From Salinisphaera orenii subsp. orenii MK-B5 (GTDB lineage: Bacteria > Pseudomonadota > Gammaproteobacteria > Nevskiales > Salinisphaeraceae), in assembly GCF_003788635.1 (NCBI RefSeq), contig NZ_AYKH01000015.1, positions 1 through 64,000 of the forward strand: a stretch of DNA of 64,000 bases, given 5' to 3'. The notes under the pieces are model-generated. The model was not told the DNA's origin, did no database searches, and worked only from the letters and a program-made list of their open reading frames with translations. Below, in pieces: positions 61,312 to 64,000 of the stretch (positions within the stretch are counted from its first letter, which is position 1; each line of letters opens with the position of its first letter). A program made the position numbers and the translations under genes.

Positions 61312-63015
61312 ATGGCCGAGGACAAGCCGCTCAACCGTCGCAGTCGCGTCGCCACCCAGGGCACCGCGCGTGCGCCCAACCGCGCCATGCTGCGCGCCAT
61401 GGGCTATGTCGATGCGGACTTCGACAAGCCCATCGTCGGCATCGCCAACGGCTACTCGACCATCACACCCTGCAATATGGGCCTGAACAAGCTGGCCGTG
61501 CGCGCCGAGGGCGCACTGGAAGCCGGCGGCGCCAAGTCGCAGATGTTCGGCACCGTGACCGTGTCCGACGGCATCTCCATGGGCACCCCGGGCATGAAGT
61601 ACTCGCTGGTCTCGCGCGAGGTCATCGCCGACGCCATCGAGACCGCGGTGCAGGGCGAGTCCATGGACGGCGTCATCGCCATCGGCGGCTGCGACAAGAA
61701 CATGCCGGGCGCGATGATCGGCATCGCCCGCATGAACGTCCCGGCGATCTTCGTCTACGGCGGCACCATCAAGCCGGGCCGCGTGCCGGGCAGCGACGAG
61801 GATCTCACCGTCGTCTCGGTGTTCGAGGCCGTGGGCCAGCGCGTGGCCGGCACCATCGACGACGAACAGGTTCGCCGCGTCGAGTGCAACGCCTGCCCGG
61901 GCGCGGGCTCCTGCGGCGGCATGTTCACCGCCAACACCATGTCCTCCGCCTTCGAGGCCATGGGCATGAGCCTGCCGTATTCCTCCACCATGGCCGCCGA
62001 GGACGCGGAAAAGGCCGAGAACACCGCCGCCTCCGCGGAGGCGCTCATCAACGCCATCGCGCAGGACATCAAGCCGCGCGACCTGCTCACCTTCGAGGCC
62101 TTCGAGAACGCCATCGCGCTGATCATGGCCGTGGGCGGCTCCACCAACGCCGTGCTGCACCTGCTGGCCATCGCCCAGGCCGCGGACGTGAACCTCACCA
62201 TCGACGACTTCGAGCGCATCCGCGGCAAGGTGCCCGTGTTCTGCGACCTCAAGCCCTCCGGGCGCCACGTCGTCACCGAACTGCACGCTGCCGGCGGCAT
62301 CCCGCAGGTGCTCAAGATGCTGCTCAACGCCGGCCTGCTGCACGGCGACTGCGGCACCATCACCGGCCAGACGCTGGCCGAAGTGCTGGCGGACGTGCCC
62401 GACGCGCCGCCGGCCGGGCAGACGGTCATCCACCCCATCGACCAGCCGCTCTACGAGACCGGGCATCTGGCCATCCTCAAGGGCAATCTGGCCGAAGAGG
62501 GCGGTGTCGCCAAGATCACCGGCCTCAAGAACCCGGCCATCACCGGCCCCGCCCGCGTTTTCGACTCCGAAGAGGAGGCCATGCAGGCGATCGTCGACGA
62601 AAAGGTCGTCGCCGGCGACGTCGTGGTCATCCGCTACGAAGGCCCCAAGGGCGGCCCCGGCATGCGCGAAATGCTCTCGCCCACCTCGGCGATCGTCGGC
62701 CGCGGCCTGGGCGAAAAGGTCGGCCTGATCACCGACGGGCGCTTCTCCGGCGGCACCTACGGCATGGTCGTCGGCCATGTCGCGCCGGAAGCGGCCGTGG
62801 GCGGCAACATTGCCCTGGTGCAGGAAGGCGACAGCATCACCATCGACGCCCGCGAGCGGAAGCTGCATCTGGAGATCAGCGACGACGAACTCGTCGAGCG
62901 CCGCAAGGCCTGGCAGCCCAAGCCGCCGAACGCCACGCGGGGTGTGCTGGCGAAGTATGCCCGGTTGGTGGGGACGGCTTCCAAGGGGGCGGTTACGGAT
63001 CAGCCGGACGACTGA
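61312..63015 (+). CDS. ilvD: Dihydroxy-acid dehydratase
   Basis: IlvD/Edd-family Fe-S dehydratase of 567 residues for valine, leucine and isoleucine synthesis. Cluster cysteines are Cys54 (TPCNMG), Cys127 (GGCDKNMPG) and Cys201 ([16 protein letters not shown]). C-terminal [18 protein letters not shown] is also typical. The ATG at 61312 is chosen because the family start ([11 protein letters not shown]) follows; longer frames upstream are not family-like. A terminator follows, and then a region of different composition. Confidence 0.96.
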
Positions 63016-63047
63016 TTCCGCGAGCGTCCGCGTATCGCCCCATCAAG

Positions 63048-63071
63048 AAGCCCGCTTTACGCGGGCTTTTT
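63048..63071 (+). terminator. Rho-independent terminator after ilvD
   Basis: AAGCCCGC (63048-63055), loop TTTAC, GCGGGCTT (63061-63068) and a T-run to 63071. Confidence 0.85.
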
Positions 63072-63284
63072 AGTGGGTAACGAATGCTGGGTCGGCGCCG
63101 ATACAGAGTGTTAAGGTCGCCACTGAATGCGGTTGGCGCGCGGAAACGCTATTACGCGTTAGGTATTGTCGATCTTCGTATAGCGATAATTACGGTGGCG
63201 TAACTGACGGAAAACATTATTCGAATTATTCGTTACGCGAAGTCGTGCTTAAGCGCTATACCTAGCAGTGACCGTATACTTGGC
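63072..63284. other. AT-richer gap between ilvD and first cassette; possible attI remnant, no integrase gene
   Basis: 213 bp of clearly lower GC than the rest of the window. It contains GTTAGGT (63158-63164), a perfect match to the GTTRRRY core of integron sites, a CGCCA-N11-TGGCG inverted repeat (63119-63139 region) and a direct repeat of ATTATTCG near 63216-63232. There is no room for, and no sign of, an integron integrase gene. It may be an attI region that lost its integrase, or a remnant of an older cassette end. Confidence 0.45.
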
Positions 63285-63291
63285 GTTGGGG
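63285..63291 (+). other. Left cassette junction (integron core site GTTGGGG)
   Basis: G|TTGGGG lies 6 nt before the ATG of the next gene. Its complement, CCCCAAC, is exactly the inverse core at the left edge of the attC-like site at 63839, as expected when both belong to one cassette that can circularise. The last base is G where the consensus has a pyrimidine. Confidence 0.6.
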
Positions 63292-63297
63292 TGATTG

Positions 63298-63825
63298 ATG
63301 ACATGTATTAACGAATCGACTGCCCAGCGTTTTATCGAGCATGCTAAAACGGTCAACGAAACAGCAGCTTTAGCACTGCGCTTGGAAACGCGTGATGCGA
63401 CAGCGATTCAAGCGAAAATATCGTTCGGGCTATCTCTGCAAGCGGCAGAACTCGCAGCGAAAGCGATGCTAATTACTACTGGGCTAACGCCCGATGAGGC
63501 TCGCGCTCGACACCGGCGCCACGACGTATACCAAATGCTGCTAGAAGCCAACGAGAGAGTCGAAGGCCATCCGAATCGTGCGCTCAAGCTATACGGTAAG
63601 TTTCTAAGTTGGTTGCCCATTGTTGACGGAGCAGAGTTCGCAACGTCACTGGGAGAATATTTTGAGCAACACTTCAGCCATGGCCCTACGGCGTTTCCGA
63701 GAAATTACTTCTATCCTGATCTTGAGCAATTTGCGGGCCCGCAGCCGCCCCAGGCGCTATACGTTATGGTCGAGCACCTCATTCAATGTGCCTCGGAAGT
63801 GCGCGTTGCAGCAGAAGGCCAGTAG
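63298..63825 (+). CDS. HEPN-domain-like protein in a putative integron cassette
   Basis: Protein of 175 residues. A HEPN-type helical domain is suggested by LSLQAAELAAKAMLITTG followed by RARHRRHDVYQMLLEANERV, the pattern of a helix with AAELA-KA then an Arg/His-rich segment ending HD. HEPN proteins are often RNases in toxin-antitoxin or defence systems; no nucleotidyltransferase partner is in view. A TTG at 63295 could also start it, but the ATG at 63298 is preferred. GC and codon use are much lower than in neighbouring genes, pointing to transfer. It sits between a G|TTGGGG junction and an attC-like site. Confidence 0.7.
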   Translation: MTCINESTAQRFIEHAKTVNETAALALRLETRDATAIQAKISFGLSLQAAELAAKAMLITTGLTPDEARARHRRHDVYQMLLEANERVEGHPNRALKLYGKFLSWLPIVDGAEFATSLGEYFEQHFSHGPTAFPRNYFYPDLEQFAGPQPPQALYVMVEHLIQCASEVRVAAEGQ

Positions 63826-63838
63826 TGAGTTGTAACTA

Positions 63839-63941
63839 CCCCAACAGGTCGCTGCAGCCGACCGCCCAAAGCGCTGCCGCGCTTTGGGTTCCCTCCGCAG
63901 CCTCTGGCTGCTCCGGCGTCGGCTGAGCTTAGGCGTTAGGG
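63839..63941 (+). other. Integron attC-like recombination site
   Basis: 103 nt with full attC architecture: inverse core CCCCAAC (63839-63845), L'' CAGCCGAC (63855-63862), L' GTCGGCTG (63918-63925, exact complement) and core GTTAGGG (63935-63941) preceded by AGGC. The arms extend to GCC/GGC with one extrahelical C (63863). Inside are two more perfect stem-loops: CCCAAAGCGC/GCGCTTTGGG (63865-63888) and GCAGCC/GGCTGC (63897-63911). Such a site is recognised as folded single strand by integron integrases. It directly follows the HEPN-like gene by 13 nt. Confidence 0.78.
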
Positions 63942-63957
63942 CTACGGAATTAGACCT

Positions 63958-64000
63958 ATGGGAAATACACTGCTGATTGAACGTCTTCGTAGTCGCCGTT
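63958..64000 (+). CDS. Start of the next cassette gene (cut by window end)
   Basis: ATG at 63958, 16 nt after the attC-like core, opens a frame (MGNTLLIERLRSRR) that runs to the window edge. A start this close to a cassette junction is usual for integron cassettes. Only 14 codons are visible, so no function can be given. Confidence 0.45.
   Translation, partial: MGNTLLIERLRSRR

Follow-up and report, generated by a model that had tools for sequence, protein, structure and literature searches.

Integrons are usually described as one integrase beside one attI. How, then, should a cassette array be understood that lies 3' of ilvD and has no intI next to it? Here, we analyzed such an array at the right end of a 64,000-nucleotide stretch of DNA from Salinisphaera orenii subsp. 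orenii MK-B5 (the window), for which the original prediction had proposed a putative integron gene cassette directly downstream of ilvD. C15 denotes the contig of the window and G000 its genome, and the coordinates of the features are shown in Table 1. Our preferred reading, to which we assign a probability of about 0.8, is that the element is a cassette array headed by its own attI without intI (a solo dock), which would be served in trans by a remote IntI.

The stretch 63286-63935 is an integron gene cassette, as its attC has paired R and L boxes with an extrahelical base and folds on the bottom strand, the strand used in integron attC recombination. In this site (R'' = CCCCAAC, R' = GTTAGGG) the outer cores are paired, the L helix has 8 + 3 pairs with a single bulged base between them, and the center is formed by two hairpins. 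Folded as single-stranded DNA, the bottom strand reached -32.7 kcal/mol (z -3.86), and none of 200 shuffled sequences folded as well. The attC-like architecture proposed from the letters was thus borne out, and so was the left junction, with G at 63285 and TT at 63286-63287; the inverse core CCCCAAC is the exact complement of this junction (GTTGGGG), the relation predicted for one cassette in its circular form. The single low-GC gene that had been claimed is also present: its GC content is 52.5% as compared with 68.7% for the window, and none of 629 segments of 531 bp to the left of position 62900 was as low. A scan of 62950-64000 for a cassette promoter (Pc), which was a sigma-70 consensus scan only, returned no match.

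Because simple attC finders gave many false matches, attC sites were called with a covariance model of our own (R1), which unlike the published model was built from 13 attC of the window's genome; a stricter hand-written rule was applied where R1 was unsuitable or had no matches. When the window's genome was searched, its 13 attC were found at E < 1e-10 and the next match at a new place had E 0.14. It should be noted that these 13 training sites match by construction; many non-training attC in other genomes were also found by R1. This clean separation and the good single-strand fold both speak for the predicted site. R1 places seven attC on C15, three on C16 and a single one on each of C4, C44 and C21. 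Six attC lie to the right of the first one before C15 ends, inside the array, at position 68247, in line with the expectation of further sites on that side, and with seven attC and no nearby intI the array is a CALIN (at least two attC without nearby intI). C16 and C44 also end within arrays, C15 and C16 end in near-identical cassettes, and the ilvD-dock array and the intI array have a cassette in common (95.8% over 285 bp). The inverse core was exactly complementary to the left junction in 7/7 cassettes of C15, 4/4 of C16 and 2/2 of C4, as expected if each of these 13 cassettes had entered as a circle; it was exactly complementary to the cassette's own right core in none of the 13. Two sites, the first attC of C4 (48 nt) and C16:1096-1182, are of other types and unlisted by R1, the latter (L018) being an attC of quite different sequence type inside the intI array. 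In addition, the C21 site (C21:17202-17310; L021:12203-12311) is a lone attC of the same family with a damaged right core (GCGATGG instead of GCGTTNN), and no type A attI was found in 20 kb around it.

Directly to the left of the first cassette, at about 63228-63287, lies an attI that agrees in its core with the attI adjoining the genome's sole intI. The attI of class 1 integrons has the anatomy DR1/DR2/L/R. Allowing up to three mismatches, a 33-base motif, GCTATACCTAGCAG-NNN(A/C)-CGTATACTTGGCGTT, had three matches in the genome, all without mismatch, and the control had none. Only one IntI was above the family cut-off (C16:3088-4062, 487 bits), and neither the genome IntI search nor tblastn of the locus found intI next to the ilvD-side attI. 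Thus, this is a genome with one integrase and three attI-headed arrays. Examined as a complete integron, the ilvD locus has an attI at the head of the array, with a perfect core and a degenerate distal box, and has no adjoining intI; since the site is an attI, it is not an attG, which is a host site other than attI. The integron cassette 3' of ilvD was therefore correctly recognized in the original prediction, whereas the attI and the absence of intI were overlooked.

Table 1. Features of the ilvD locus and attI motif matches in the genome; C15 is the contig of the window.
Feature	Position	Strand	Remarks
ilvD (dihydroxy-acid dehydratase)	61312..63015	+	dock sits 3' of ilvD; product 99% identical to IlvD of Salinisphaera halophila YIM 95161 (G003)
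Terminator-like hairpin with short T run, 3' of ilvD	63048..63071	+	read from sequence; absent from terminator-scan listing
attI distal box, degenerate	63228..63241	+	ATTCGTTACGCGAA against consensus TATTGCTATACGAA, 8/14 bases agree; in register with other attI
attI, proximal box GCTATACCTA and core CGTATACTTGGCGTT	63255..63287 (motif match C15:63255-63287)	+	one of exactly three in genome; no adjoining intI
First gene cassette	63286..63935	+	from TT of attI core to G of own attC R' core
Cassette gene, 176 aa	63295..63825	+	TTG start as listed; weak HEPN likeness, below Pfam cut-off
First-cassette attC, 103 nt	63839..63941	+	bottom strand is recombining strand; 109 bits
Second cassette, start	63936..64000	+	own attC at C15:64310-64384; five further attC up to 67.9 kb
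attI motif match beside intI	C16:2960-2992
attI motif match, third	C4:113145-113177

The same arrangement recurs among the 14 Salinisphaera genomes examined. At E 1e-60 or better, 12 of them have a single IntI each and the other two (G005 and G012) have none. The type A attI pattern occurred at 20 sites in 11 genomes (9 adjoining intI, 11 solo; no control match), and the type B core, ATGTCGTCGARTTGGCGTT, at 19 sites in 9 genomes (3 beside intI and 16 solo; one control match), which amounts to 12 attI beside intI (linked) and 27 attI-like sites without intI. IntI was detected by tblastn in the 12 linked loci, and neither IntI nor a remnant of it in any of the 27 solo loci as fetched, some of which are on short contigs. 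Linked intI genes start less than 100 bp from attI; in 10 of 11 linked loci, 95-97 bp separate the attI box from the start of the IntI frame, and the eleventh has a different called start. The type A boxes TATTGCTATACGAA, GCTATACCTAG and CGTATACTTGGCGTT share one register over about 60 bp in the 9 linked and 11 solo sites, and in the solo sites conservation drops on both flanks of the boxes; the upstream boxes of type B docks vary. The one-contig genome G009 has one IntI and, ~148 kb away from its linked attI, a solo one. G005 and G012 (L173, L175, L221, L222, L223 and L226), where no IntI was found, also contain solo attI and attC arrays; one of these genomes is 99% complete.

When the solo sites were grouped by upstream synteny, docks recurred at the same loci in different species. 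The dock 3' of a histone-deacetylase-family gene (Pfam PF00850; the G005 copy scores 241 bits) is present in six species, with type A sites in G005, G012 and G009 and type B sites in G001, G002 and G007. The dock 3' of ilvD is of type A in G000 and G003 and of type B in G002, and a dock 3' of a tad-like gene (PF13400) is found in G000 and G003. Further groups consist of G004C37 and G006C126; of G003C2, G006C250 and G013C4; and, for type B, of G001, G005, G006, G008 and G012, the last group being based on short alignments of about 300-800 bp. The dock of G010 lies beside an ABC protein that we take to be LolD. An attI was found 3' of ilvD in 4 of 10 readable genomes (G000, G003, G002 and G011), a count that leaves out G004 and G007 (contig too short) and G006 and G012 (ilvD not found at the cut-off). 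The 9.5-14 kb fetched 3' of ilvD contained no attI and no clear attC in G008, G013, G010, G009, G001 and G005, with one weak R1 match (E 0.0038) in G008. In G011 the gene between ilvD and attI is intI itself, and the order ilvD, intI, attI, array supports the earlier suggestion that the ilvD hotspot has been used in this lineage. As a separate observation, one of 80 ilvD loci, that of the cyanobacterium Hydrococcus rivularis (L073, 13000-13941), carries an IntI-like gene with 59% identity, located about 1.3 kb 3' of ilvD, and a partial one was seen in L099.

The content of shared docks differs between two close species. In G000 and G003, the sequences beyond GTT are unrelated at both common solo docks. 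Upstream, the two genomes are 97% identical in the ilvD and tad regions, and this identity is lost at the ilvD end (97% over 1004 bp) and ~1.8 kb before attI, respectively; thus, the flanks beside attI have changed too, and not the cassette side alone. Cassette variation after ilvD, a point on which the original prediction could be checked, was accordingly found in S. halophila.

Cassette uptake was further assessed from the sites downstream of each attI. An R1 attC followed 12/12 linked, 10/11 solo type A and 11/16 solo type B attI. Among the six solo sites lacking one (21/27 have it), two have a contig end within 0.8 kb, and one, G001C10, has one attC candidate by the hand-written rule. For the analysis of junctions, 131 sites were used and 18 dropped. 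The inverse core of the first cassette matched the attI junction exactly at 11 of 20 solo attI and in at least 6 of 7 bases at 19 of 20, and it matched the cassette's own right core exactly at none; the respective numbers for linked attI were 8/12, 10/12 and 1/12. Later cassettes had exact junctions in 31/43 cases in solo arrays and 31/56 in linked arrays, as compared with 5.9% for random junctions. In each of G000, G002, G008 and G010, the intI array and a solo dock had cassettes in common, although sharing between docks in the latter three mainly involves one recurrent cassette of about 350 bp.

We also compared solo cores with the integrase of their host. Solo cores had 8.57 mismatches to the linked attI of their own genome versus 11.94 when shuffled (p 1.5e-4, 21 sites, species relatedness uncontrolled), and the same shuffle for type A alone gave 4.5 versus 5.4 mismatches (p 0.029, 10 sites, species relatedness likewise uncontrolled). 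Type A solo sites numbered 9 in IntI-A and 0 in IntI-B genomes, and type B solo sites 7 in IntI-A and 5 in IntI-B genomes. These figures are suggestive of core type following host IntI type; strict matching fails, since seven type B solo sites are in genomes whose sole IntI is beside a type A attI. In addition, the IntI tree conflicts with the ilvD tree, with the IntI of G011 grouping with G009, G001 and G010 and that of G013 with G002 and G007, which indicates that intI has come and gone or moved.

Beyond the genus, IntI at E 1e-90 or better was found in 80 of 187 sampled gammaproteobacterial genomes. The linked attI of G075 and G106, two one-contig genomes from other families, served to derive one attI pattern, with which we searched 22 genomes. 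Three copies were found in G075 (one linked and two solo) and two in G106 (one linked and one solo), and none in the control; each of the two genomes has one IntI. The solo copies are ~667 and 951 kb from the linked one in G075 and ~582 kb in G106, and no IntI was found at any of these three. On the basis of the hand-written rule, the first solo attI of G075 has six attC-like sites downstream, the second, with a damaged GTT, has no convincing attC downstream, and the solo attI of G106 has three attC-like sites downstream, the first with an exact junction match. On their opposite side, none of the five attI had an attC candidate within the fetched sequence. The absence of matches in the other 20 genomes says little because the pattern was derived from none of them; G075 and G106 are the only unrelated genomes searched with a fitting attI pattern, and copies are present in both.

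We propose that the single IntI of the window's genome may act in trans on all three attI. It would insert circular cassettes by attI x attC recombination and excise them by attC x attC recombination, and one integrase would thereby feed several chromosomal positions. Such action of one IntI on several chromosomal attI docks is probable in view of the arrays described above, and, according to the accessible parts of two reports, standard assays show recombination when intI and attI are carried by different plasmids, so that an attI in cis is unnecessary (PMC9668308, PMC12690207). The docks themselves might have arisen by copying of attI, by loss of intI from older complete integrons or from older insertion sites that were tuned towards the resident attI; loss of intI is possible at the ilvD locus because G011 has intI there.

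Loss of intI is also the basis of the main rival explanation, in which solo attI are former complete integrons minus intI and their arrays are static leftovers. The position of intI in G011, the docks of G005 and G012 with no IntI found and the conflict of the IntI and ilvD trees would all fit such degraded integrons, and CALINs are termed proposed degraded integrons in the accessible part of the IntegronFinder 2 paper (PMC9024848). However, tblastn detected no IntI remnant at the 27 solo sites as fetched, the attI boxes have been retained, and static leftovers would hardly have different cassettes at common docks of two close species or cassettes in common with the intI array. We consider this explanation unlikely, and of use mostly as an account of origin.

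A second rival, in which the cassettes were inserted at ordinary genomic sites with no more than a likeness to attI, is much less probable. Insertion at attG, a non-classical type of site, is known (Loot et al. 2024, as cited in the accessible parts of PMC12444791 and PMC12690207), and the varying upstream boxes of type B docks could be read in this way, but the type A solo and linked attI have three boxes in register over about 60 bp, and the control patterns gave no match for type A and one for type B. Plain attG insertion was rejected on the basis of these boxes and near-zero controls, and chance likeness of the attI motif on the basis of the controls. The idea that the assembly placed intI and the ilvD-side array, in truth one unit, on separate contigs would be consistent with the arrays at the ends of C15, C16 and C44 and with the near-identical cassettes that end C15 and C16. 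Yet the junction of ilvD, attI and cassette lies within one contig, as it does in G003 and also in G002, where the core is of type B, and the one-contig genomes G009, G075 and G106 have distant solo attI; with these three genomes an assembly break was rejected, and we regard an artefact of this kind as the least probable explanation, with hardly any weight.

Several known systems resemble the solo dock in part. The sedentary chromosomal integron of Xanthomonas has the same ilvD hotspot, IntI family, attI and attC array of mostly unknown genes. In Xanthomonas, intI is downstream of ilvD and CALINs are found at seven other conserved loci, at which the accessible part of the report makes no mention of attI (PMC12444791). 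In contrast, ilvD of the window is followed by attI and an array without intI, and there is one intI elsewhere and two further arrays with their own attI. CALINs are alike in being attC arrays without neighboring intI, whose cassettes are thought to be mobilizable in trans; attI is disregarded in their definition, whereas in the window a copy of the resident attI, at a fixed locus, stands at the head of the array. Both CALINs and lone attC have also been described in Shewanella (PMC9229058, accessible part). Sites termed attG, known here by the description in citing papers, share the insertion of cassettes away from the intI-linked attI, but are described as neither attC nor attI, whereas the Salinisphaera dock is an attI. 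The delta-attI cassettes of mobile integrons likewise have attI sequence outside its usual place; as far as the accessible part of that report goes, attI pieces replace attC in class 1 arrays (PMC12901181), whereas in Salinisphaera a whole attI heads a separate chromosomal array. Within the open literature, which was the scope of our search, we found no report of attI docks without intI.

We tentatively suggest, at slightly less than even odds, that sedentary integrons generally include remote attI docks, and that many CALINs might be attI-headed docks fed in trans and kept in step with one resident integrase rather than degraded integrons. Such docks would then have been overlooked because attI was not searched outside class 1; IntegronFinder does not detect attI outside class 1, according to the accessible part of its description (PMC9024848). 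If one integrase serves several docks, the cell gains several first positions for fresh cassettes. In that case, arrays remote from intI may be live and not relics, and active integron loci are undercounted. The origin of CALINs also becomes testable by means of copies of the resident attI at their heads.

Some cassettes deserve mention for their content. The recurrent cassette of about 350 bp, which starts with GTT-GTACGGCGGT(C/T)(G/A)GTT (L184:2457-2811; also L166, L162, L174 and L220), is a first cassette in several Salinisphaera species, where it follows both linked and solo attI and is sometimes in tandem; no obvious gene was seen in it by eye. The fourth cassette of the ilvD dock (C15:64869-65483; L017:2870-3484) encodes a protein resembling the PADLOC TIR effector model (E 4e-11). 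Defence genes are also carried at the C4 dock (L019:11460-15123), whose first cassette has a likeness (E about 4e-9) to restriction nucleases of the Mrr-like or type IV kind, and a gene immediately past the array in this region matches the Old nuclease model at E 1e-199.
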